Shown in pieces: positions 4,452 to 41,126 of a stretch of DNA of 64,000 bases (position 1 is the first letter of the stretch; each line of letters opens with the position of its first letter). Below the pieces are notes generated by a model. The model saw only the letters and a list, made by a program, of their open reading frames with translations. It was not told the DNA's origin and did not search any database. The stretch is from Rhabdophis nuchalis (lineage: Eukaryota; Chordata; Lepidosauria; Squamata; Natricidae): the NCBI GenBank assembly GCA_039707465.1, contig CM077643.1:378860419-378924418 (forward strand), read 5' to 3'. The position numbers and the translations under genes were made by a program.

Positions 4452-6090
4452 CACACATTCTCTTTGAAGGTGTTCACAAATGGGGTTTAGAGGCCTTTCT
4501 TGTTTTTTGAATTATTAAATTTTAGGTTGCTTTGTATATATTTCTACTATGATTTCTACCTATGATTTTATTTTTCTGATAGTGTGACTATTGTGAACAT
4601 AGATATGGAAAGCTGTTGCCGAAGATGTTAAGAGGCTGTCTATACGTAATAAATAAAGCTGTGCCTCTTTGGAATAAGTTATCACAGTAATATGCAACTT
4701 TCATTCCCCGCATGTTCTCTGGACTCGCTTTTGTGGACTTTAGATCTGCTGCAAATTGGTTGCATTGCTTTTTCAGTGATGGATATCAGAGAAATAAATA
4801 TCAAAATACACCTAGAGCTTTTTTTCTTTTCTTTTCCTCTTAAAAAAGCACACCTTTGAAAGTCCTCAGAATTGCATGCCATTAAAGTTTTCCAGAATCT
4901 GTATTCACTATATTTGAATATTGCTGCTCTTTTTTTTTCATTCCACCATTGCCTGTAAGATAAATAATTAGAATGAAGGAACACTTTCTTGAACTGTACG
5001 GAGACATACACTGTCTGTAACTACCTTCATCATCTTCCTTCTTTCATGCTCTTGATTCTAATTAAAGCTTTGAACAATATTGCCTAATCACAGTAATCTA
5101 GGTCAAGTTCTTTTCAAATCTCTCTCTCTCTCTCTCCAGCTGGTTTACAGGTAAATACGTATACTCCTTACCTGTTTCTGTTGCTACACTGAATTGTTTG
5201 TATAAAAAGAAAGATTCACAATGTATTTCACTTTGCAAAATTGTTTCCATGTGCAAGAATCCCTTCCAGTAATGTCCATGCGATATAATATTGTTTCTGA
5301 TCCATTCACCTTCCCTTGTTCAAAGTAGTAGAAGTCATGTACCCTGGAAAGAAACTTTGCACTGTTCAGTGACTTGCCACAGGTCTTTTAGAAGGTCATA
5401 ATTACTAAATCTATGTCAGAGCCAGATGGAGCTTCTTGTTGTATTTTCAGTAACCTAAAAACGCATGTGTATTAGAAAGAGAAAGACTCTGCAAGTACTG
5501 TTACCTTGGTTTTTGGCTACTTACAGCATGTATGGAGAATATGGGAGCAATTATATACTACTAATTAATTAGAAATGGTGATATTTAGTAGATATAAAGG
5601 ACTGTAAGAAGAAGGTAGGATAATAGAGGTTTTGTTGAAGTTCACTTTGTGGTCCCACACTATTACAATATGCAGTGTAGTATGCCAATAAATTTTCTTT
5701 GGCTTTATTAACGCACTAATATGCTATCTTTCTGCTTGTGTAAGCAGTGCCCTACAATAATTATAACAAAATGGAAATAAAACATGACAAATGATTTTAG
5801 CACTTGTTCAACCAGTACTTTAATGCAATTAAAATTAATTAACAGAAGATAGGTGAAAAAATGCATTTTTGTCATATTTCCAAATACTGAGACATTTGTT
5901 TGGGTGAGTGTGGAGTCAAACCAATTTTATAATGGATTATGTATCAATAGATATATTTCATAGTACAGGTTTATAAGTTTGCCACAATATATGTGAAAAA
6001 ATAAATATATTCATGGATTACAATTTCTGAAATTCTAGTTAATACTGTTACTGCCAAGATTCAGTGCTAGTGTTGCTAAGAGAATTTGAA
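4452..6090. other. Intron sequence, nothing recognised
   Basis: AT-rich sequence with a short (CT)n at about 5123. No gene or named repeat is visible. Confidence 0.5.
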
Positions 6091-6098
6091 CCTTAAAA

Positions 6099-6417
6099 CA
6101 GGGGTCCCCAACCTTTTTTGCACCAGGGACCAGTTTCATTTTAAAGAACATTCTGTGGACCGGCCGGCGTAGAGGAGAAACGGGAGGGAGGGGAACAGGC
6201 GGCGCATGCGCACGCAGTGGGAGGGGGAACAGGTGGCGCATGCGCATGCGGGGGAGTCATCTCACTCGGCTCTCTAGGGCCTCCAACGGCACGAACGGCC
6301 GCGTCTGCACTCTCCCGCATCTGGTGCGTGCTCTGCCCAGGGGGCTGCTCCCTCCTCTCTGGCCCTGCGGCCCGGTTCCTATCAAACCACGGACCGGCAT
6401 CGGGTTGGGGACCCCTG
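6099..6417. mobile_element. hAT element, CAGGGGTCCCCAACC family
   Basis: Termini CAGGGGTCCCCAACC and GGTTGGGGACCCCTG lie between exact 8-bp duplications CCTTAAAA (6091-6098, 6418-6425). The interior is GC-rich with several CGCATGCGC motifs. It is non-autonomous. Confidence 0.92.
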
Positions 6418-6464
6418 CCTTAAAACGTTTGTAGGTTGCTCAAAAGGAAAAATATGTGGTTATT

Positions 6465-8564
6465 TTTTTTTTGAAAAAAAGTTTTATTGGTTTTAACAAT
6501 TTATAACAGGAAAGGGGTAGATAAGGTGTTAGATAATATTTTGGAGCTTCCACATCGGGTTTGATGACCGCCTCCGAGTCTTCATACATATTCCATTTAA
6601 AAAAAATATTAAAAGGAAGGGGTACATACATTTTAAAATCATAAATTTTCATATTATTTTATACATTCAATTACTTTGTACTATTGACATCCGTACAGGA
6701 ATTACCATCATAAAAAAATATATAACAAATTATTTTTGCAATCTGAGCCTCTTTGCTATAGTCTCTTCCTCCTCCCCCCCACAAGCAGGCGGACCCATGG
6801 CCCCTCCCGTTCCCATCTCATCATCATCCAGGATTGAAGAGTGTTTTTTAAGAAAATTATGTGCCTCTTCAACTGTTTTGATTATAACTCTTCCTCCCTC
6901 CCAGAATACCAGCATCCCTTCCGGCATCATCCACTTGAACCACACCCCCTTTTTGAATAATTTTTTTGTTAAGAAGGAATAATTCCTTCTTATATCTCGT
7001 ATTCTCTTTGGGATCTGCTTCAATATGGCCACCTCGTTTTGCTGATACATCAAAGGGCCCCCTCTTTGTGCTCTCAGTATCTCATCCCTCGTTGACCTTC
7101 TTATAAATTTAATATGTATCTCTTTGGGTACCTCATTTATTCTGGCAAATGCTGAATTCTATAAATCAAATCAGTGTCCCCCCCAAATAAATTCCTTATC
7201 TTTCTTAATATAATCCGCTAACATAGTAGCCATCAGCTCTCTTAAATTCTCATTCGGTAATTCTGGAACATCCTGAAATCTTAAAAAGAAAGACATACGT
7301 TCAAAATCAATTTTAGACATTTGACCAGTAATATCTGTAAGTTCTTTCTTAAAGTCTTTTATCTCTTCCTTCATCTCAACTGCCCCCCCCCCTTCCAGCC
7401 CCACAATTTTTTGTTTATTATTCGTTATTTCTTTTTGCGCCTCCAATAATTCCAATCTTGTGCTTAAATTGTCTTTCCGGATTTGTTGCATTTCATTCAT
7501 TATTCTTTGAAACATCTCCTCTACGTTTAATGGCTGAGGGCTTGGTGACTTTGGATCCTCTACTTCTGCTTCCTTCTGTTACAAAGCTGAAATCTTTGGT
7601 TGTGAGGATGGGCTGGGTTTTGTAGATGCTGGAGCAGAGCTTGGTTTCCCAGATGGGTGTTTCCTCGATGCCATAATTAAAATTTTAAGTGTTGGTGCGT
7701 AGAGAAGAAAGAAAGAAAAAAAATGGCGCTGTTGGGCGGGCGGTCTGTGAAGTCCGAGACAAAAGCAGCTGTAGTTCAAATTAAGTTTACAACGTCCGGA
7801 GAGAAAAAGGAAAAAAGGAAAAAACTTTCCAAACAAAAGCAGAAGGTTTCACAAAGGGAGAGAGTACCGAAAGACACCAGAGCAGGTCCTTTTCTTATAT
7901 ATTTTGAAATTAGCCTAATTTTGTTGAAATAGAGGAATGCTTATTTTCAAAAAAGAAAAATTCCATCCTGGGAACAAAGAGAACGCCATCTTTCCGCCTT
8001 GCCGGCAGGGTGGACAAAACAAAAGTGAAAACAATCAATTTAAAATGTAGCAAGGCTCAGGATACATTGTCTAACAGCAATCCCTTAGTTAACAAGAAAC
8101 TTCCTTTTTCAATAAATCCGACGGAAGTCACTTTCACTCTCTCCGCATCGCGGGACTCTTTATCCAATGCCGCTTTATTTCCAGGGGGGTTGTTTCCAAC
8201 TCCCCCCTATCTTCTCTTTTCATCAAATGAATGCAAAAAAATCCGAATAAGACACATACCATTTTTCTAATCCGGAGCCTCGGCGCAGCCATTCAGCCCC
8301 GGAGTTTCAGCTCCTTTTAAAATCCTCCATGTTCCAGCTCCTTCGGCGAAAGGGAAGCTCCCCCCGTGAAAGTTCCCCAGCCCCTAGGGCGAGGCGAGAG
8401 TAGCCCCCCCGACTGCCGTCTAGATGGGGGCCCTCACCGCAAGCCGCCCGTGCAGAGGGGGGATTATGCCCATCCCCCCCGCACCCGAAGGCGCGGCTGA
8501 GGCAACACAGCGGCGTACGTGTGGGATCCACGTCCGTCCGCGTCCGAAGCCGGAAACGATCTCG
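6465..8564 (-). mobile_element. Full-length L1-like element with ORF1 only (no ORF2)
   Basis: The element is flanked by near-identical 17-bp duplications, 6448-6464 and 8565-8581, differing only at one G/A. On the minus strand it starts with a GC-rich leader (about 8564-7680), continues with a degenerate ORF1, and ends in a 3' region with AATAAA near the end and a poly-A tail (T run at 6466 on the plus strand). The intact duplication and tail show that the whole 2.1 kb was inserted as one unit. There is no reverse transcriptase, so it must have used another element's enzyme, like mammalian HAL1 elements. Confidence 0.85.
6731..7674 (-). pseudogene. L1-type ORF1 (RNA-binding chaperone), inactivated by stops
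   Basis: The frame opens at ATG 7674-7672 (MASRKHPSGKPSSAP) and stays in one frame to about 6731, with roughly three or four in-frame stops (near 7580, 7170 and just after) and no frameshift. In order it shows a Ser/Pro/Lys-rich N-terminus, a coiled-coil-like stretch (QRIMNEMQQIRKDNLSTRLE onward), an RRM-like block (ERMSFFLRFQDVPE) and a C-terminal block (EVPKEIHIKFIRRSTRDEIL). This is the order of L1 ORF1 proteins, which bind element RNA as trimers. Length is about 315 codons. Confidence 0.75.
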
Positions 8565-9193
8565 AAAAATATATGGTTATTGAATGGTTGTATACAGGGG
8601 TGGAATTGAACAACCGGTTCTCTGCCTGGCTGCTGGTGGGGCATGGCCTACTCGGCCTCCTGCACCACGGCTGGGAGAAGTGTAATTTTCATTCTCCTCA
8701 GGCTCTGGAGGGTTTTCTCAAGCCTCTGGGAGTGCGTAAACAACCTGTTCTCAGGTGTACTGCTACGAATGTCCATTCAATGGGTTAACATCAGCTCCGC
8801 TGCCCTCGACTGAATTGAATTTGTTTAAACACGCCTTCCTCCCCATCATCCTCCAGTTCTTTCAATTCAGTCCAAGCCCTAAGACGGATTTTCAGGCAGC
8901 TTAGCTAAATATTAATTCCTTCTAAAGATTTTACTGCCTGTTTTCTGTTGATTCCTTCCTTCCCTTGTATAGTTTAAGTTAGTTGAGTTTAAGTTTGTTA
9001 TTTTTATTTTCCTCATCTACCGGCCGGGAGGCATTACCTCGCCCAGGGGGGGGCCAGACGCTCCCGGGAGCGGCGCGCCTCTTCAAATTCCGCGAGGGGG
9101 AAAGTGAAGTAGCCTCGGGGAACGTCGTCTTTTCCCCTCCTCTTCACCGGCGGGCCTGTCCTTAACGGCGGTCCGCCGGCTGCGGAATCTTCG

Positions 9194-12100
9194 TTGGAGC
9201 CTCGCCGCCCAGGAACAGCAGGTCGGTTCGCCACGATCGCGCCGCGTGGAGCGCGCTGGGTGCCGCCATTTTGGGTCGCGCCGCCCAGCCTATCAGGGTG
9301 CGGGATTTTCCCGCCGGCGCCGAGAAGCTGCGGATTTTGCCGCATTCTCTCCCCAGCTGCAGCGGCGAGTGGTAGCTTGTGCAGCGGCTCCCCAGGGCTA
9401 GTGCGGGCCTCTCGTTGCTGGTCCTCCAGGCTGTTTAACTTGTGGGCTCAGTGTAAACGCCTCCTCCGGCTCCTTTCTCCAGCGCTTCCCTCCAGCTTTC
9501 CTGCGTTGGCAAGTGTTCCCTTCCACCTCTCCCGTGGTTTTCCCTGCTCCAGTCTCATGGCCACCAGGGCTGAAGATGCCATTACAGTTCTCCCCGATCA
9601 GTGGGCCCCAGCTTGGGAGGACAGGCCCCTGGTTAGAAAGGCGGGGAGGGCGGCCCGTGAGGCGATCAGAGACATCAGCAGGGGGCCCTATGCTAGGAGA
9701 GATGACTTGACTCAGGAGAGGGTGGAGGCCAGATGCCAGAAGGCCTTAGAGCGCCAATTCGATAAGGCGCAGAGGCAAGTTGTGGCTGTGGCCCAGGTCC
9801 ATCGGGCCCAGTCGCCGGTGTTGGAGGGTAGGGGCCGCTCCACCCAGCTTCAGGCCCATTTTCAGAACAGGGAGGATCGGGAGATATCTCTTGATAGATC
9901 TTCCTTAGCCTCCAGATCTATTTCTCCCTCCATAGGTGGAGGCACGGATCTTTTCGAATGTAACATGGAGGAGGACCAGAGGTCCTCAGTTTCTGCCCCA
10001 CCCATCCTTTCCGAGGTTCCCCCAGCACCATCCTTGGAGTCAGGGGGGAGGCCGGTGGAAGACCAGGGCCCGTCTCTCTCGGCTGAGATGAGACAGATTA
10101 TCAATTCCGCAATCTCGCAGGGCATTGCCCAGGGGCTGAAGGAGTGTGACATGGGGGCCGCGCAGGAACAGGAGCCTAGGCCCCGTCGCACCAGATCAGC
10201 TTCTCCTCGCCCTTCAGTGGTTAGTGCAGAGTCGGTTTCGGAGGTTGATGACCTAGCGGAACCTGAATTGTCAGATGATGAGGGTGTGGCACCGGATAAG
10301 CCTGCCTTTTCCGGCCTGTTCCAGCCTTCGTACTTTAAATCCATACTTCACAAGGCTAAAGTCATCACTCACATGAATGTGGCTTCTGCACCTGCCCTGC
10401 AAACGTCTGAACCCCCTACTGTCACGGATCCCGAGGATCCTAGTGGGGGCCTCTTTGATGAGTCAGAGCAGCCTCAGGATCTGGTCCCTGCCCCCAAATT
10501 GTTCCAAAATGTGATCCAACGCCAATGGGTACAGCCTGCCACCTGGAATACCCCGGGGGCTAATGATAAGAAGCTGTATGCAGTTGCCCCTGACATGGAG
10601 GAGTTGCTGAAACTCCCGGAGGTTGACCCACCTATTGCGGCATTAACCTCAAATTCCATCCTTCCACCTGACCTACTGGACGGCCTTAAGGCCGAGGACA
10701 AGCGGGCGGAGCGGGCCTGCCACAAGGCCCACCAAGCTGCTGCCTGGGCCATCAAGGCTTCTACCTCGGCCTCCTTTTTTGGTAGGGCCTCCATTGCCTG
10801 GCTTCGTCAGCTCCTTAAGAAGGTGCCCCAGGGAGATGCTAGACAGCGCCAAGACATTAATAAAATCATGTTGGCGATGGAGCACACCGCGGACGCTTCC
10901 CTGAACGCGGCAAAGTTTGCTTCCAGAGCCATGGCGGCCAACGTTACATCTCGCCGCCTCTTGTGGCTCCGACATTGGAATGCCGACATGCGGTCCAAAT
11001 GGAAGCTTGCTTTGGCTCCCTTTAAGGGAACGAAATTGTTTGGGGAGGCCTTGGATTCGGTGTTAGTTGAGAATAAGGATAAGAAAAAGGTCATGCCGTC
11101 AGTGTCTCGCAAAACGGACCGCAGGCCTTTCTCCTTCCGTCGCCAAAATTCCAAGCCAGCTGAGACACCATCCTCTTCTGCTCCCCCTCCTCCGGCTTAC
11201 CAGAGGGGCTACAATTGGGGCACTGATCATCCTCAGAACAGACAGTCCTTCAGAGACAGGAACCGGTATCAGCCCTATGCCAAACGTCCCTTTCGAGGAC
11301 ATCACATGGTCGCTCCGATAGGGGGCCGACTCCAACTGTTTGCAGACCGCTGGGAGGCGACCACGTCAGATGCGTGGGTCCTGCAAACGGTTCCACTCGG
11401 TCTCACCTTAGAGTTCATTTCGCCCCCTCCCCGTCGGTTTGTTTGCTGTCCCATCCCCAGATGCCCATCCAAACGGGGGCTCATGGAGAAGGAGATCCGG
11501 CACCTTCTAGACATCAGGGCAATAGAGTCAGTCCCCAAGGGTCGGGAGGGGACGGGGTTCTATTCCATCTTGTTCCTCGTCCCCAAGAGCACGGGAGGGG
11601 TCAGAGCCATCTTAGATTTAAAGGCCCTAAACTACCACATAGCCTACAAAAAATTCAAAATGCAGTCCCTGCAATCCATCCTGGGCTGCCTTCGGCCCGG
11701 AGACCTGATGTCGTCCATCGACCTGAAGGAGGCCTACCTTCATGTGCCCATTCGTCTCGCCCACCGACGATTCCTACGCTTCACCTACGCAGGCCGCCAC
11801 TACCAGTATCGCGCACTGCCCTTCGGCCTGTCATCCGCCCCGAGGGTCTTTACCAAATTGCTGGCAGCGGTCGTAGCCGACCTCAGAAGGCGGCCAATCA
11901 GACTTCAAAGTTATCTGGACGACATCTTGCTTCAAGCCTCGTCGCGACGACAGGCTCTACAAGAACTTCAAATCACTCTGGACTCTCTCCACTACCACGG
12001 GTTCACAGTCAACACTGATAAGAGTCACCTCTCTCCCGCACCTCGAGTGTTGCACCTGGGGGCAGTGATCGACACCTCATCTTGCCTCGTTTCCCTCTCC

Positions 12101-13186
12101 CCGGAACGAGTGACCAGCCTTCGAGCTTTGGTTCGCCAGGTGTTGACCTCCTCGATGGTCCCAGTCGTTGTGTTATCGCGATTACTGGGGAAGATGATTT
12201 CGTGCCTTGCCATCGTTCCCTGGGCACGACTGCATGCGAGGGAGTTGCAGTGGTTCCTCCTTCCCATTCAGAGGGCCAACGACAGCAACTCCACGGCCAG
12301 AGTTCGGGTACCCGTAAAGGTGCTGAGGTCCCTCAGGTGGTGGTTGACCCCATCCCTACAAAAAGGCTCGCTATTTCGAGAGCCGAATCGACTAATCCTC
12401 ACGACCGACGCGAGTCTCTTCGGCTGGGGCGCACACCTCGGCGACTCCATGGCACAGGGCAAATGGACCCCCAGAGATCTCCAGCACAACATCAACTGGC
12501 TGGAATTACGAGCGGTCCGCCTCGCCTTACGTCGCCTCCGGACGGAGGTCCAGTGCCATCACGTGCTAGTCCGGACGGACAACGTGGCGGCGAAGGCGCA
12601 CATCAACCACCAGGGCGGCACCAGGTCCTCGGCACTGATGACGGAGGCCGAGGCATTGGGCAGATGGGCCGAACGTCACCTAGGCTCCATCCGAGCAGAG
12701 CACATCTCGGGGGTGGACAACACCAGAGCGGACTGGTTGAGTAGGACCACCCTCGACCCATCAGAGTGGAAACTGAACCCGAACGTCTTCCAACAGATTT
12801 GCAGCAGGTTCGGAGTTCCCCTGGTCGACATGTTTGCCTCACCATACAACGCCCAGCTTCCCCGCTATTTCACCCGGTACCGGTCCCCACTGGTGGAGGA
12901 GATGGATGCGCTCAACTCCCCGTGGCCCAGGGGGCTGCTATATCTGTTCCTGCCGACACCCCTGCTACCGCGGGTCATCAGGAGGATTCTTGTGGAACGG
13001 GCCGACGTAGTCCTCGTAGCTCCTTATTGGCCACGTCGAACCTGGTTTGTGGACCTGTGCAGCCTGTCCATCGAACTGCCGTGGAGGATTCCGGCGGGGA
13101 TAATCTCCCTCAGCCAGGGGGCGGTCTTCCATCCGGAGCCCCAGTGGCTCAATCTGACCGCCTGGCGCTTGAGAGGGAACTCCTAA
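9194..13186 (+). CDS. DIRS Gag-RT-RNase H-methyltransferase-like polyprotein (retrotransposon)
   Basis: This is an uninterrupted 1330-codon frame. A Met at 9557 (followed by ATRAEDAITV) is a more plausible start than the first Met at 9194, since the earlier part is GC-rich leader-like sequence. Residues up to about 700 are Ser/Pro/Arg-rich and Gag-like. Reverse transcriptase follows at about 755-980, with LVPKSTGGVRAILDLKALN, the SIDLKEAYLHVPI block and the catalytic SYLDDILL near residue 906. RNase H spans about 1068-1180 (TTDASLFGWG, ELRAV, RTDN, NTRADWLSR). The last 125 residues (DMFASPYNAQLPRYF, VLVAPYWPRRTWF) match the region assigned as a DAM-like methyltransferase in DIRS elements. It would make cDNA of the element. 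The lack of any stop suggests a fairly recent insertion. Confidence 0.9.
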   Translation: MEPRRPGTAGRFATIAPRGARWVPPFWVAPPSLSGCGIFPPAPRSCGFCRILSPAAAASGSLCSGSPGLVRASRCWSSRLFNLWAQCKRLLRLLSPALPSSFPALASVPFHLSRGFPCSSLMATRAEDAITVLPDQWAPAWEDRPLVRKAGRAAREAIRDISRGPYARRDDLTQERVEARCQKALERQFDKAQRQVVAVAQVHRAQSPVLEGRGRSTQLQAHFQNREDREISLDRSSLASRSISPSIGGGTDLFECNMEEDQRSSVSAPPILSEVPPAPSLESGGRPVEDQGPSLSAEMRQIINSAISQGIAQGLKECDMGAAQEQEPRPRRTRSASPRPSVVSAESVSEVDDLAEPELSDDEGVAPDKPAFSGLFQPSYFKSILHKAKVITHMNVASAPALQTSEPPTVTDPEDPSGGLFDESEQPQDLVPAPKLFQNVIQRQWVQPATWNTPGANDKKLYAVAPDMEELLKLPEVDPPIAALTSNSILPPDLLDGLKAEDKRAERACHKAHQAAAWAIKASTSASFFGRASIAWLRQLLKKVPQGDARQRQDINKIMLAMEHTADASLNAAKFASRAMAANVTSRRLLWLRHWNADMRSKWKLALAPFKGTKLFGEALDSVLVENKDKKKVMPSVSRKTDRRPFSFRRQNSKPAETPSSSAPPPPAYQRGYNWGTDHPQNRQSFRDRNRYQPYAKRPFRGHHMVAPIGGRLQLFADRWEATTSDAWVLQTVPLGLTLEFISPPPRRFVCCPIPRCPSKRGLMEKEIRHLLDIRAIESVPKGREGTGFYSILFLVPKSTGGVRAILDLKALNYHIAYKKFKMQSLQSILGCLRPGDLMSSIDLKEAYLHVPIRLAHRRFLRFTYAGRHYQYRALPFGLSSAPRVFTKLLAAVVADLRRRPIRLQSYLDDILLQASSRRQALQELQITLDSLHYHGFTVNTDKSHLSPAPRVLHLGAVIDTSSCLVSLSPERVTSLRALVRQVLTSSMVPVVVLSRLLGKMISCLAIVPWARLHARELQWFLLPIQRANDSNSTARVRVPVKVLRSLRWWLTPSLQKGSLFREPNRLILTTDASLFGWGAHLGDSMAQGKWTPRDLQHNINWLELRAVRLALRRLRTEVQCHHVLVRTDNVAAKAHINHQGGTRSSALMTEAEALGRWAERHLGSIRAEHISGVDNTRADWLSRTTLDPSEWKLNPNVFQQICSRFGVPLVDMFASPYNAQLPRYFTRYRSPLVEEMDALNSPWPRGLLYLFLPTPLLPRVIRRILVERADVVLVAPYWPRRTWFVDLCSLSIELPWRIPAGIISLSQGAVFHPEPQWLNLTAWRLRGNS

Positions 13187-14222
13187 GCCAAGCACGTTTC
13201 TCCGACCAGGTCATCAACACCATCCAGGCCGCACGACGCCCTTCTACCACCAGGATTTACGGGGCCACCTGGGTGACCTTTTCTGCCTGGTGCACCCGTC
13301 ACCGAATTATTCCTCTCTCGGCTTCTCTCCATCACATCCTGGACTTCCTACAGGAAGGGCTGAACAAAGGACTGGCTCCGGCTACCCTCCGTCGTCAGGT
13401 AGCAGCCTTGTCTACGGTCCTTTCGGCGAGAGATTTCCAACCTCTCAGTCGCCATCCCAGCGTGCGAGCTTTTCTGAAGGGGGCCTCGAACCTTCGCCCC
13501 CCGTTATCCATCGATACCCTTCATGGGATCTGACCACGGTCCTCCGTGCCTTGTCAGAACCACCATTCGAACCCCTGCGTTCAACATCTATTCGGCACCT
13601 GTCATTCAAAGCCTCCTTCCTGGTCGCTATCACCTCTGCTCGCAGGGTGTCGGAACTAGCGGCTCTCTCAATTCGCGAAGACCTGTGCCGTTTTCACACT
13701 GGCAGGGTGGTTCTCAGACTCGATCCCTTGTTCCTACCAAAGGTCAATTCCCTTTTCCACCGCACACAGGAAATTGTTCTACCAAACTTCTGTCCTCGTC
13801 CCGCTCACCCTAAAGAAAGGCGCTGGCACTCGTTGGATGTCCGGCGAGTGCTGAAACATTACCTCACACGTACGTCCTCCTTCCGGCGTTCAGAAACATT
13901 GTTCCTTTCCTTTCAACCGGCTTCGATGGGACGGGGAGTGTCGTCGTCCACCATTGCTAGATGGATTAAGGCCTGCATCTCACTCGCTTATGAGCACCAG
14001 GGTCGACCGAAACCTTCAGGCCTAACAGCGCACTCCACCAGAAGCGCCTCCACCATGGCCGCCTGGGCCTCCCAGGCACCCATAGAGGAGATCTGCAGAG
14101 CGGCCACTTGGACGTCACCCTCCTTGTTTGTGCGACACTACAAGCTTGATAAATACGCCTCGGCGGATGCCGCTTTTGGCTGTCGAGTTTTGCAGAGTGT
14201 TGTTTCCCGTGACTCTCAATGA
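13141..14222 (+). pseudogene. DIRS tyrosine recombinase, frameshifted
   Basis: The N-terminal part (core-binding-like, containing FSDQVINTIQAARRPSTTRI) is in the frame ending at 13533. The catalytic part, from about 13500 to the stop at 14222, is in another frame. The shift coincides with a run of six C at 13497-13502. Catalytic residues of the tyrosine recombinase family are visible: Arg in SARRVSEL (about 13636-13659), the HxxR box in HSTRSA (His 14031-14033, Arg 14040-14042) and a nucleophile Tyr candidate in HYKLDKY (14139-14141). The reading frame overlaps the end of the preceding polyprotein and has no obvious start codon of its own. This enzyme integrates the circular DNA of DIRS elements. 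The break may be a real mutation or a base-call error in the C run. Confidence 0.85.
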
Positions 14223-22544: not shown

Positions 22545-22859
22545 TAGTAGATGACTAAAAAGCAATAGCCCTGCTAGCCAACAGGAAATGGAGAATGGAG
22601 TAGAGGAAAAAACAATACAGGAACTACAGTTAGTGATAACCAGATGTAATTTCTGTTAGGAATTTTCCAATTCTACGCGGGAGAAAAGCCGAACAACCAA
22701 AGACCTACATATATATAATTGGGACTTAACAGGGTGTTGTGACACAAGCATATACTTATCCTCCTGTCTCAGCTGGTCAGGATAGAACCAGTTGGTCTAG
22801 AGGCAATTACAACTGCATCACATGCAATAATTCCCTGGTTCGAATCCCAGTAAGGGTAT

Positions 22860-22906
22860 GGCTAGCTGATGAGAGCTAAAAAGCTTGAAATAGATCTATA
22901 CTAGTC
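22860..22906 (+). ncRNA. Type I hammerhead ribozyme motif, copy A (intact core)
   Basis: This copy shows, in order: stem I 5' strand GGCTAG; invariant CTGATGA (22866-22872); stem II GAGCT, loop AAAA, AGCTT (one G-U pair); invariant GAA (22887-22889); a short stem III formed by ATAG and CTAT around AT; cleavage nucleotide A at 22900; and stem I 3' strand CTAGTC. Every core base required in known hammerheads is present and stem I is the open end, so the topology is type I. It lies about 12 bases downstream of a perfect pol III B box (22837-22847). Function is inferred from base-pairing only. Confidence 0.75.
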
Positions 22907-22950
22907 TCTCTGATTTATTTATTGATCAGCTCATAAAACTAACATATATG

Positions 22951-22966
22951 TATGTATGTATGTATG

Positions 22967-22997
<31 letters not shown>
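22951..22997 (+). repeat. (TATG)n / (TG)n microsatellite
   Basis: The tail of a plus-strand tRNA-derived repeat. A similar AT/TG array is at 23158-23210. Confidence 0.9.
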
Positions 22998-23159
22998 AAT
23001 TGTTTCACAACAACCTGTTATTATTAGGCCCCAATTAAGGGAGGAGACATACTGTTTCCCTTACTGCCTATCGGCTCATCGCTAGAGACCATCCAGACAG
23101 CAAGCCAAGAATTACGTTGTATAATATTTTAGATATGTGTGTTAGTTGATCACTAACAA

Positions 23160-23212
<53 letters not shown>

Positions 23213-23333
23213 ACAACACCCTGTTAAGCCCCAATTAAGGGAGGAAGCATACTGCTTTCCTTTTCTGCCTTTCGGCTCATCACCAGAGACCATCTAGACA
23301 GAAAGCTATGAGTTCCGTTGTGTACTTTATTTT

Positions 23334-23380
23334 TATTAGCTGATGAGAGCTAATAAGCTCAAAATAGATCTATCCTAGTC
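23334..23380 (+). ncRNA. Hammerhead ribozyme motif, copy B (degenerate)
   Basis: CTGATGA (23340-23346) is followed by stem II GAGCT, loop AATA and AGCTC. The invariant G that should follow has become A (23361). Stem I 5' strand is weakened (TTAG against CTAG), and the cleavage nucleotide is C. The copy lacks the tRNA-like part and is probably inactive. Its stem II and stem III still pair, showing descent from the same element. Confidence 0.6.
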
Positions 23381-23470
23381 TCCCTGATTTATTTATTGAT
23401 CAGCTCAAAAACCTCTCTCTCACACACACACGTGTTAGTTTTATGAGCTGATCAATAAATAAATCAAGGA

Positions 23471-23517
23471 GACTAGTATAGATCTATTTCGAGCTTTTTA
23501 GCTCTCATCAGCTAGCC
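23471..23517 (-). ncRNA. Type I hammerhead ribozyme motif, copy C (perfect core and stems)
   Basis: Read on the minus strand, 23517 to 23471 gives GGCTAG, CTGATGA (23511-23505), perfect 5-bp stem II GAGCT/AGCTC with loop AAAA, GAA (23490-23488), stem III ATAG/CTAT, cleavage A (23477) and CTAGTC. Stem I pairs over 6 bp, including one G-U. This is the cleanest of the four copies, with no departure from the hammerhead consensus. It sits directly 3' of a tRNA-like segment with B box at 23540-23530 and A box at 23585-23575 on the minus strand. Confidence 0.8.
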
Positions 23518-23971
23518 ATACCCTTACTGGGATTCGAACCGGGGCTGTATTGCATATCAGGCAAGAGCCTTTAGCCATTCAGCCAGCCAAGCTCTCTTAT
23601 TGCATCAGCTGAGACAGGAGAATAAGTATCTATAATTGTTCCACAACACCCTGTTAGGGCCCCAATTAAGGGAGGAAGCATACTGCTTTCCTATTCTGCC
23701 TTTCAGCTCATCACCAGAGACCATCTAGACAGAAAGCCACATGTTCCGTTGTGTGATTTTTTAAAATATGTGTGTTAGTTTTATGAGCTGATCAATAAAT
23801 TGGTTAGTTTTATGAGCTGATCCCTTAATTGGGGCCCTAACAGGGTGTTAGGGAACAATTATAGATACTTATCCTCCTGTCTCAGCTGATGCAATAACCT
23901 GGCTGGCTGAATGGCTAAAGGCTCTTGTCTGATATGCAATACAGCCCCAGTTCGAATCCCAGTAAGGGTAT

Positions 23972-24018
23972 GGCTAGCTTATGAGAGCTAAAAAGCTCGA
24001 AATAGAGCTATACTAGTC
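23972..24018 (+). ncRNA. Hammerhead ribozyme motif, copy D (core mutation)
   Basis: The layout is the same as the other copies: GGCTAG, then CTTATGA, stem II GAGCT/AGCTC with loop AAAA, GAAA, stem III ATAG/CTAT, A, CTAGTC. The invariant G of CTGATGA is T at 23980, which in known hammerheads abolishes activity. All three stems remain intact. The A box (23904-23914) and B box (23949-23959) lie upstream. Confidence 0.7.
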
Positions 24019-24087
24019 TCCCTGACTTATTTATTGATCAGCTCAAAAACGTAACACACACACACACACACATATATATGTGTGTGT

Positions 24088-24232
24088 GTGTTTTCGTAGA
24101 TTTTCACGGGTGTAGGTATGCTGACATTGCTGGCTTCGGGGATTTTCCCGTGCATATAGCATGGAGATGTTATTGCATCGTTTCGACAAGATCTCACTTG
24201 TCATCATCAGGCAGAAGCCTGATGATGATTAA
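24088..24232. repeat. Interspersed repeat with perfect inverted motif
   Basis: This block follows the (CA)n/(TG)n stretch at the end of the tRNA-repeat cluster. It begins TTTTCGTAGATTTTCACGGG and contains an inverted repeat at about 24202-24229 (ATCATCAGGC and its complement around AGA). On the minus strand there is a CTGATGA...GAAAC arrangement with a 6-bp stem between the two. The class is not certain. Similar end sequences are common in reptile repeats, perhaps from Penelope-like elements (inference). Confidence 0.45.
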
Positions 24233-24639
24233 GATATACCATGAATTTCTGATTTAAAGTGTATAATTTAATATGATTTATGAGTAACGATGGTGGAAGA
24301 AATTCATGAGAGTTACATGTAACCAATCGACATGCTTTCTACAGGATGTAATGAAGGATGATCTTTTTTTGTATTTTTGTTTAAGTAAAAAAAACGTTAT
24401 TTAAAAAGAAAGAATATTAAATTTGATGTGTTAGGAATAAATAAATATAGGACATAAGAGCTTACCAAAGAATCAAGTGGCAAGAATCAAGTAGTATAAT
24501 AGCAGTGTAAATATACATTTGCAATGTCCACTTGTAATGGAAAAGAATATTAAGGAATTCTACAGCAAATGGCAAGAATTAGTGAATGCAATGTAAAAAG
24601 GACCTAATACTACTAGTTGGAGAAATGGAAGAACCTGGA

Positions 24640-38909: not shown

Positions 38910-40487
38910 CTATCCTAGGCCGGCCAGACAGAAAAGATGAGTTTTTAATTTAAGACGGAAGGAGTGGAGGTCCGTGGTCGTCCTAATATCGGGGGGAAGG
39001 TCGTTCCAGAGGGCCGGGCCCGCCACAGAGATAGCCCTTCCCCTGGGTGTCGCCCGCTGACAGTGTCTAGTGGACGGCACCCGGAGAAGTCCCTCTCTGT
39101 GGGAGCGAATCGGCTTGAGCCTGAGTCCGTTCCTTCCCATCCAGATCCGCACGGCTTCCAGGCACTGGCACATCACCGCTACGGCATCGTTGGGGTGGTT
39201 TGGGGTAGATATATACAACTGAGTGTCATCAGCGTATAGATGGTACTCTACCCCAAAACCACAGATGATCTCACCCAGCGGCTTCATGTATGTGTTAAAC
39301 AAGAGAGGCGAGAGGACCGACCCCTGAGGCACCCCACATGTGAGTGGTCTCGAGGTCGACCTCTGCCCCCCTGCCAACACAAATTGCGATCGGCCAGAGA
39401 GGTAGGAGGAGAACCACCGTAAAACGGTGCCTCCCACCCCCAACCCCCCCAGCCGATGCAATAGGATACCATGGTCGATGGTATCGAAAGCCGCCGAGAG
39501 GTCTAATAGGACCAGGATGGAGGAACAACCCCCATCTCTGGCCCTCCAGAGATCATCAACCAACGCGACCAATGCCGTCTCGGTGCTATGCCCGGGCCGA
39601 AAGCCGGACTGGCGCGGGTTTAGATAGTCAACTTCCTCCAGGTGACGGGGAAACTGTTGTGCCACCACACTCTCAACAACCTTCGCCAAAACGGGAAGGT
39701 TGGAGACTGGACGGTAGTTGTTTAAAAGAGCTGGATCCAAAGAGGGCTTCTTAAGGAGGGGCCTCACCATAGCTTCTTTTAGGGAAGCAGGCAAGGAACC
39801 CTCACTTAAGGATGCGTTGACAACCTCTTGGAGCCAGCCTCGTGTCACCTCCCAGGATGCCAGTACAAGCCAGGAGGGACACGGGTCCAATAAACATGTG
39901 GTGGCTCGCAGTCGCCCACGTAACCTGTCCATATTTTCGGAAGTAACGGAGTCAAACTCCTCCCAAACAACATCTGTCTCGTGGCATCCCACTGGGCCAT
40001 GAATGGGGGCTAACTCGTTCTGTATCTGAGCGGTTTTCTCCTGCAGAAAAATCACAAATTCCTCTGCTCTACTCTGTAGCGGGGCTTCCCGCACCCTTTG
40101 TTGAAGCAGGGAGAGGGTCACCCTAAACAGGGCGGCAGGGCGGTTTTCTGCGGATGCTATGAGAGTAGCACAATGATGGCGTTTGGCCACTCTCAGTGCC
40201 ACAATGTAAGTCCGTAAATGGGCTCTTACCTGTGTCCGGTCAGATTCAGATCGGGAAGACCTCCATCTTCTCTCTAGGCATCTCTTGCGGCGTTTCATCA
40301 CCCGCAGCTCCTCGGTAAACCAAGGAGCCAGGGTGGTTCGCCGCCGCAAGAGAGGCCGCAAGGGCGCGACCCGATCCAAGGCTCCCACGGCCGCACTATT
40401 CCATGCGGCCATGAGGTCCTCCATCGGGGCACGGGTCAGGGGTACAGGAAATGGCCCAAGCGCCGTCTGGAACCCATCCGGGTCCAT
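38910..40487 (-). CDS. CR1/L3-type LINE reverse transcriptase fragment, open frame
   Basis: A 525-codon open frame carrying the reverse transcriptase core: YRPVSNLPVLAKVVESVV, then LDLSAAFDTIDHGIL, the GVPQGSVLSPLLFNTYM block and catalytic YADDTQLY (plus-strand position about 39210). It lacks the N-terminal endonuclease because of 5' truncation. After RNGLRLK it jumps to PIRSHREGLLRVPS, whereas relatives have well over 100 residues between these blocks, so an in-frame internal deletion is likely. It ends LKTHLFCLAGLG. A retrotransposon relic with an intact frame, not a host gene. Confidence 0.8.
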   Translation of the reverse strand: MDPDGFQTALGPFPVPLTRAPMEDLMAAWNSAAVGALDRVAPLRPLLRRRTTLAPWFTEELRVMKRRKRCLERRWRSSRSESDRTQVRAHLRTYIVALRVAKRHHCATLIASAENRPAALFRVTLSLLQQRVREAPLQSRAEEFVIFLQEKTAQIQNELAPIHGPVGCHETDVVWEEFDSVTSENMDRLRGRLRATTCLLDPCPSWLVLASWEVTRGWLQEVVNASLSEGSLPASLKEAMVRPLLKKPSLDPALLNNYRPVSNLPVLAKVVESVVAQQFPRHLEEVDYLNPRQSGFRPGHSTETALVALVDDLWRARDGGCSSILVLLDLSAAFDTIDHGILLHRLGGLGVGGTVLRWFSSYLSGRSQFVLAGGQRSTSRPLTCGVPQGSVLSPLLFNTYMKPLGEIICGFGVEYHLYADDTQLYISTPNHPNDAVAVMCQCLEAVRIWMGRNGLRLKPIRSHREGLLRVPSTRHCQRATPRGRAISVAGPALWNDLPPDIRTTTDLHSFRLKLKTHLFCLAGLG

Positions 40488-41126
40488 CAGGCGTCTGGGG
40501 CGGAACCAGATTGGAGACTTTTAGTCCTCCGGAGGCTTCAGGGACCTTCAGGAGGCTTCCCTGAAGGCTCCAGAGGACTAAAACAGCTCCAGAGGCTTGT
40601 ATAAAGCCTCTGGAGCCTGGGGAGGGCGAAAAAAAGCATTATGGGTGTGGCACGCCAGCGCACGACTCCCTTGCGCTCCCCCCTCCTTATGGCACGCGAG
40701 TCTAAAAAGGTTCGCCATCACTGGCCTAGGGATTCATATTTGTGATTCCTTATAACTTCTTTAAACTAAACATTTTAAGTATAAATCAACACATTGACAT
40801 GTATATCACTAATGCTGTTTTTTATCTCTTGCAATGACATAATTAGCACCTTATGTATTGAATACAAGTATATCAAGTATAGGTTAAATTTGAATTAAAA
40901 AATATCTAATTCAAATGTATAAGCTGTGAATTTATTATTTAATATCAGGCAAACATTGCAATTTTCTTCCCAGTTTAATTCAAAATGTATATCCAAATGT
41001 TTCCCCCCCCCCCAAAAAAAACCAGACACTTTTGGGGGGGGTGCGTGTGTGTGTGTATGTGTCTACACAGCAGAAGTGTCTGATTTCGGGGAGGGGGGGG
41101 ATAGAGGAACATTGAACATGACATTG

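Follow-up and report, generated by a model that had tools for sequence, protein, structure and literature searches.

The hammerhead-bearing repeats in the window (the whole 64-kb stretch of DNA analysed here) are probably copies of a vertebrate non-LTR retrozyme rather than of a plain SINE, and on this reading, which we judge probable as a whole, the window holds the worn remains of retrozyme insertions. The unit, as we picture it, would be about 330–346 bp long and non-coding, with a tRNA-like internal promoter followed by a type I hammerhead and then an AC-rich tail; the 5′ strand of stem I would be supplied by the 3′ flank of the tRNA-like part, and the AC-rich tail would lie about 44–53 nt past the cleavage site.

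An earlier sequence-only reading had placed hammerhead motifs at 22860–22906 (+), 23334–23380 (+), 23471–23517 (−) and 23972–24018 (+), here called A to D, and all four were relocated at these positions. Copy C had been called flawless and is so: it has a complete core, all three stems and an A at the cleavage position, with CTGATGA, stem II (GAGCT/AGCTC with loop AAAA), GAA, stem III (ATA(GATC)TAT) and stem I (GGCTAG/CTAGTC). Copy A differs, as claimed, only by a single G-U pair, which lies at the base of stem II. The further claim that B and D have each lost one core base also stands, as B reads AAA in place of GAA (G12 to A, the altered G12 being a CpG position) and D reads CTTATGA in place of CTGATGA (G5 to T). 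The 5′ strand of stem I in copy B, TATTAG, is partly derived from a joint, and by eye 5 of its 6 pairs are still possible. When the copies were tested for the features of a type I hammerhead (CUGANGA and GAA, H at position 17, three helices, stem I open), A and C passed, while B and D each failed at one core base. Judged by their letters, hammerheads B and D are expected to be dead, and A and C are the only copies in the window that could still cut; the expected cuts are at 22900/22901 in A and 23477/23476 in C.

A strict descriptor (full core, position 17 not G, stem I of at least 5 bp, stem II of at least 4 and stem III of at least 3), run over both strands of the window, matched A and C and nothing else, and it found 0 matches in 300 random windows generated by a first-order Markov chain fitted to the window. 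The Rfam search that the sequence-only reading had suggested as a check gave a less favourable result, with no family reaching the gathering threshold in the window; at gathering, no family passed in 19 further loci of the host genome either. In a relaxed scan the family Hammerhead_HH9 (RF02275), which we take to represent amniote intronic hammerheads, scored 28.5 bits on C, 24.2 on D, 23.1 on A and 22.4 on B against a gathering threshold of 52, with E-values for the four of 0.00017 to 0.016 in a 2-kb search, and copy C alone gave an E-value of 8.4e-6 in 101 bases. One unit of a tandem array at locus L049 of the host genome scored 25.6 bits, below the same threshold of 52. These four window copies and the L049 unit align with the family at full length, except for copy B, but at 22–28 bits against 52 they are not assigned to HH9. 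Other relaxed Rfam matches (miRNA, leader and others) were discarded, many of them lying on inverted arms and microsatellites. With a model of our own, R1, the copies scored 94.4 (A), 62.5 (B), 94.9 (C) and 89.2 bits (D), although the model was built with A, C and D included and their scores are therefore not independent.

The motifs had been described as belonging to four copies of one repeat; blastn mapping of the copy C unit onto 22601–24300 instead revealed six arms in mixed orientation. Arm A (22716–22944, +; 80.1%) comprises leader, tRNA-like part, hammerhead and tail, with a match to the A-box pattern TRGYNNARNNG at 22793–22803 (+) and a B box, GGTTCGAATCC, at 22837–22847 (+), 44 bp past the A box, and it is followed by a microsatellite, (TATG)n(TG)n, to about 22996. 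Next come an inverted fragment of the unit leader (22997–23147, −; 80.4%) and an inverted leader fragment (23212–23331, −; 90.9%) that meets arm B head-to-head. Arm B (23337–23414, +; 88.5%) consists of hammerhead and tail, with no tRNA-like part. Arm C (23432–23801, −), whose copy is the query itself, holds slightly more than one full unit with a period of 340, and carries its B box GGTTCGAATCC at 23530–23540 (−) and an A-box match TGGCTGAATGG at 23575–23585 (−). It stands head-to-head with arm D (23821–24060, +; 91.8%), which has an A-box match at 23904–23914 (+), a B box, AGTTCGAATCC, with one mismatch at 23949–23959 (+), and an (AC)n end. The two head-to-head junctions of the window are at 23331/23337 and 23801/23821. 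In arms A, C and D the boxes lie 44–45 bp apart, the spacing from A to B box that is also found in tRNA genes. The statement that each hammerhead lies just downstream of A and B boxes thus holds for A, C and D but not for B, which is preceded by the inverted leader fragment; the underlying claim, that a hammerhead of type I architecture adjoins a tRNA-like promoter of pol III type, is supported.

Outside the window, the repeat proved to be abundant. A 35-place core pattern, with the letters of loop II free, base sets in the stems and stem I outside the pattern, had 19,969 exact matches in the 1.92-Gb host genome and 0 in a reversed control, and the matches are distributed along the listed chromosome. 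Among the first 100 or so core matches listed, stem III is by eye ATAGATCTAT or ATGGATCCAT, and at least two have the closing pair of stem II broken. A second pattern, anchored solely in the sequence flanking the hammerhead, gave 3,810 matches, again with 0 in the reversed control, and the family can be called abundant because 2 of 20 evenly spaced 2.5-kb stretches carry retrozyme sequence. We sampled 40 loci, namely the first 39 entries of the flank-pattern list and one chosen for its tandem pair; these and the window together contain 89 hammerhead regions, 76 of them distinct, copy B being outside these 76 because it has no upstream flank. A scan of viral contigs with a 24-base stretch of the motif found nothing.

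The helices of the hammerhead are maintained by compensatory changes. In the set of 76 distinct copies, standard pairing holds in 96.7% of cells, and double changes occur at 5 of the 14 pairs (16 cells); none of 500 shuffles, which ignore relatedness, equalled the observed pairing, the number of pairs with double changes or the number of cells with them, whereas the observed number of further pair types was reached by 74 of the 500. Natural type I hammerheads are expected to have an outer helix in stem I, and such a helix (AGGG/CCCU) lies here past a small internal loop, with 95.6% of its cells paired. The comparison of core and flank that had been proposed with the sequence-only reading, made on copies within the host genome, also came out in its favour: 19 of 679 core cells are changed against 105 of 1187 outside (2.8% vs 8.8%; Fisher 1e-7, with related rows and with part of the outside fixed by the search pattern itself). 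Eight of the 19 core changes fall at G12, the G of a CpG, and position 17 is C in 44 copies, A in 30, T in 2 and G in none. The core set is intact in 53 of the 76 copies, 34 combine it with all 14 pairs, and 61 have a perfect 10-nt palindrome in stem III.

A comparison between subfamilies, in which one full tandem unit of locus L032 was set against one of the L049 array, points in the same direction. The two units are identical at 216 of 351 aligned places (62%), with 61 of 108 upstream of the hammerhead and 113 of 188 downstream, and within the motif CTGANGA varies solely at its free position 7, all three positions of GAA are unchanged, and the stem differences are mostly paired; in L032, stem II additionally contains a G-U and loop III is altered. 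Such paired stem changes suggest that selection acted on the RNA while the copies multiplied. Minimum-energy folds of six single copies (z from +0.5 to −2.4) gave no evidence for a ribozyme, and no weight was given to circular folds computed for five monomers, of which one array supplied four (z from −2.9 to −3.3 against 40 mononucleotide shuffles).

Units were also found joined head to tail. The 32 distinct monomers, of which one array contributed six, measure 329–346 bp, and exact heads lie 321–351 bp apart in the same orientation in 338 pairs, with 0 in the control; in a second subfamily the hammerhead stretch repeats at 324–354 bp 2,403 times, control 0. The L049 array (6055–8906), of a divergent subfamily, has 7.2 units with 99% matches and begins right after a Penelope-like hammerhead and tail, and among the matches listed there is a nearly uniform array of a divergent subfamily with 8 units at C1:104889000-104891423. 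As in retrozymes, type I hammerheads thus occur in head-to-tail units within the range of 150–450 bp, and the GC content of the monomers (40–44%) and their longest open frames (39–83 aa) agree with the non-coding, low-GC character of such elements, which have no LTRs. Rare alleles are shared by the dimer partners in 3 of 26 pairs (control mean 0.21, maximum 2), and the median identity of partners is 0.895 against 0.891 between loci; given this weak resemblance, joint insertion is well shown for long arrays only. In single-molecule folds of intact copies stems I and II form but the 3-bp stem III does not, so the monomer may cut poorly; this, together with the palindromic stem III of most copies, leads us to expect cutting as dimers. 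That the ribozyme monomerises the transcripts, as had been suggested, is plausible.

The tRNA-like part was examined in 74 core-intact copies that have it as a tRNA-like 3′ part (loci L009–L071), using relaxed box patterns. The B box is kept in 51 of these, and A and B boxes spaced by 43–49 occur together in 27 of the 74 and in 0 after shuffling; under these relaxed patterns the unit does possess the tRNA-like head with A and B boxes that marks a tRNA-derived SINE. ARAGORN reported no tRNA in the window, nor did Rfam at gathering, and we name no parent tRNA because, despite the A and B boxes, no convincing acceptor stem is visible by eye. TTTT is absent from the sense strand of all 32 monomers, where shuffling predicts 27% without it, although six of the 32 come from one array and the copies are related. 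One TTTT does occur on the sense strand of window copy C, and another tandem subfamily, among the matches listed, carries TTTT as well, which counts against a terminator-free rule. Transcription of the unit by pol III is likely, to judge from its promoter-like boxes. In arrays such as C1:79913522-79915609, among the matches listed, an internal A/T run varies between units; in some of these arrays the sense strand contains long runs of T at which pol III could terminate.

How the copies came to be inserted was approached by mapping 116 arms in 40 loci, with a reference that was 3 nt short and 5′ ends that are biased by the search anchor. Two clusters dominate the 3′ ends, one with 47 of the 116 arms at about 44–53 nt past the cut (41–50 in the short reference) and the other with 34 arms at about 174–193 nt past it (171–190 in the short reference), so insertions terminate mainly at two AC- or TA-rich places. 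The 5′ ends are spread out, and they do not mark the cut site, as only 1 of 116 falls within about 4 nt of it. Adjacent arms form 57 pairs, of which 40 are head-to-head, 14 tail-to-tail and 3 co-oriented, and in 13 loci displayed the arm ends commonly have AC/TG or TA repeats, in AT/TG-repeat surroundings. A tRNA-derived SINE would be a single unit with its head first and one 3′ tail, whereas here we find multimers, head-to-head arms and two main 3′ ends.

Penelope-like elements are present in the same genome, as they are expected to be for a retrozyme, although the GIY-YIG domain scores fall just below the curated cut-off of Pfam (21.1 and 21.7 bits against 22.6). Locus L049, at the place of L005, has a reverse transcriptase (RT) frame (RVT_1, E 4.6e-7) and a GIY-YIG frame (E 4e-4), and L050, at the place of L006, has a GIY-YIG frame (E 2.6e-4); each GIY-YIG frame has a minimal hammerhead-like site next to it, with the retrozyme array coming immediately afterwards in L049. 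Within the window, a probable Penelope-like tail with a minimal hammerhead-like CTGATGA...GAAAC lies directly after arm D (24072–24229, −); it is 90.6% identical to L049 2323–2481, and part of it is 74.1% identical to L050 2813–2952, beside the GIY-YIG frame. Penelope-like tails were found at 6 of 40 and 5 of 20 retrozyme loci (11 of 60) against 0 of 20 evenly spaced stretches (p 0.03), the compared stretches being of unequal length; the adjacency could also arise if both kinds of element favour microsatellites. A purified Penelope-like protein of Anolis (PAc) cuts both strands of AT-rich DNA and begins copying internally, in an AC-rich stem loop (PMC11167929), and these two activities would explain the insertions that we observe. 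In the same in vitro work, RNA with a dead hammerhead inserted as well as live RNA (PMC11167929), from which it follows that cutting may be dispensable for insertion itself; the conservation of the core in the host genome, we argue, indicates that cutting matters somewhere in the cycle.

From these observations we infer the following cycle. Transcription by pol III, or read-through transcription, would yield a multimeric RNA in which the palindromic ATAGATCTAT or ATGGATCCAT would let neighbouring hammerheads pair with each other and cleave in dimeric form, and the resulting monomers may be ligated into circles. A Penelope-like protein would cut both strands of AT-rich DNA, and reverse transcription would begin inside the AC-rich tail, from both ends; copying that ran round the circle or along the multimer would leave both head-to-head arms and concatemers. 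We regard it as an even prospect that the family is, in this full sense, a large and possibly still active tRNA-promoter retrozyme family of an amniote, with pol III multimers, circles of ~340 nt and Penelope-like copying.

Other explanations have to be set against the retrozyme. The sequence-only reading had seen in the repeat a tRNA-derived SINE with a ribozyme that trims or monomerises its transcripts. That such a SINE acquired a hammerhead, is mobilised by a LINE and is trimmed by its ribozyme we now consider unlikely: A and B boxes 44–45 bp apart, AC-type tails and copies in the thousands all suit a SINE, but head-to-tail multimers of ~340 bp, many head-to-head pairs and scattered 5′ ends are not SINE anatomy but fit that of non-LTR retrozymes in animals and of Penelope-like insertions, and the insertions end away from the cut. 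It also seems improbable that the repeat spreads at the DNA level, as a satellite or by segmental duplication, with the hammerhead carried along as a relic of an ancient retrozyme. Against this speak some 20,000 core matches along the listed chromosome and insertions in microsatellites, as well as the paired stem changes between subfamilies, which suggest selection at the RNA level, although the L049 array is 99% uniform, as if from unequal exchange, and many copies are worn, including the 23 of 76 distinct rows that lack an intact core set.

One may also postulate that the unit is not independent and is instead the tail or pLTR of a Penelope-like element, to which it would owe its similar insertion style, some shared neighbourhoods and a hammerhead near the 3′ end. 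We hold this to be quite improbable, however, since the unit forms ~340-bp multimers, has a tRNA-like promoter and shows no frame above 83 aa in 32 monomers, hence no coding for RT or GIY-YIG, and since the hammerhead beside the GIY-YIG frames differs in sequence. The idea that decayed repeat copies merely resemble hammerheads by chance could appeal to the lack of a match at Rfam gathering, but it is already contradicted by the 0 of 300 random windows, the genome-wide control of 0 and the covariation, and it is very improbable indeed.

The retrozyme reading gains from comparison with known systems. Non-LTR retrozymes of axolotl and newt are described in passages of Cervera and de la Pena 2020 (PMC7229834) as 330- and 350-bp repeats, those of axolotl with a weak stem III and a palindromic tetraloop and with better cutting as dimers. 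By that description, the unit resembles them in its type I hammerhead, a monomer near 330–350 bp, head-to-tail dimers to multimers, low GC, a very short stem III with a palindromic tetraloop, and Penelope-like elements in the same genome; it differs in having a tRNA-like promoter just 5′ of the hammerhead and a host that is presumably no amphibian and, to judge from genome size and repeats, probably a squamate. Its head-to-head insertion style also sets it apart from the account of the axolotl and newt retrozymes in the passages of PMC7229834, which make no mention of one, and none of the terms lizard, reptile, Anolis, SINE and polymerase III occurs in that paper's main text.

Sm-alpha repeats of schistosomes, from a different phylum, have a tRNA-like pol III promoter. 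They are named in passages of PMC6155905 as a non-autonomous retrotransposon with a type I hammerhead, and the unit is like them in its tRNA-like promoter and in that its hammerhead lies inside a non-autonomous element, a likeness drawn by description only. The Poseidon-type PAc of Anolis (PMC11167929) shares with the unit tandem organisation, a hammerhead and AT-rich targets, and its cutting of both strands and internal start in AC-rich RNA can be likened to the insertion signature of the unit; unlike the unit, PAc codes for RT and endonuclease, and the account of its hammerhead gives stems I and II and a position at the ORF start (PMC11167929). The amphibian tandem repeats PolIII/TAN, Rana/PolIII and Hy/PolIII, described as tRNA-like in passages of PMC10702118, are similar, again by description only, in having short tandem units, mostly with tRNA-like sequence, and the main text of that paper contains neither "ribozyme" nor "hammerhead". 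We found no squamate retrozyme in the literature searched, though hammerhead papers of 2010, 2011 and 2014 may mention reptile copies earlier; going by titles, PMC11167929 was the sole work on a reptile element among the papers found on hammerhead ribozymes and lizards.

If the full cycle holds, self-cutting circles of a viroid-like kind, backed by some 20,000 intact cores, would exist in a reptile, and the insertion signature would tell which element is the missing autonomous partner of animal retrozymes. Hammerheads of amniotes are described in passages of PMC6155905 as few in number and conserved, located in introns and 3′ UTRs, with a retroelement origin that is only proposed; that origin would gain a living model in a family whose core pattern matches exactly about 20,000 times within a single genome. 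Animal retrozymes have no motif that reveals their helper, and Penelope-like elements are likely candidates, according to passages of PMC7761336; the signature of both-strand cutting, AC-rich tails and AT-rich targets points to a Penelope-like helper, as suggested there. The tRNA-like promoter, for its part, suggests how the RNAs of retrozymes are made.

Several further elements were noted along the way. A second hammerhead-like class, CTGATGA...CGAAAC, has 5,085 matches in the genome against 549 in the reversed control; its sites occur in L002–L006, in L049 and in the window at 24210 (−), some of them beside Penelope-like frames, and its stem variants GACAAG/CTTGTC and GATGGG/CCCATC look paired. 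In L050, a 314-aa frame at 1038–1979 (−) resembles by eye an exon of a vomeronasal type-2 receptor. Elsewhere in the window, frames of 1357 aa and 349 aa at 9113–14222 (+) look by eye like a DIRS-type retroelement with a tyrosine recombinase, and a 536-aa frame at 38910–40520 (−) has, also by eye, the look of a LINE reverse transcriptase.
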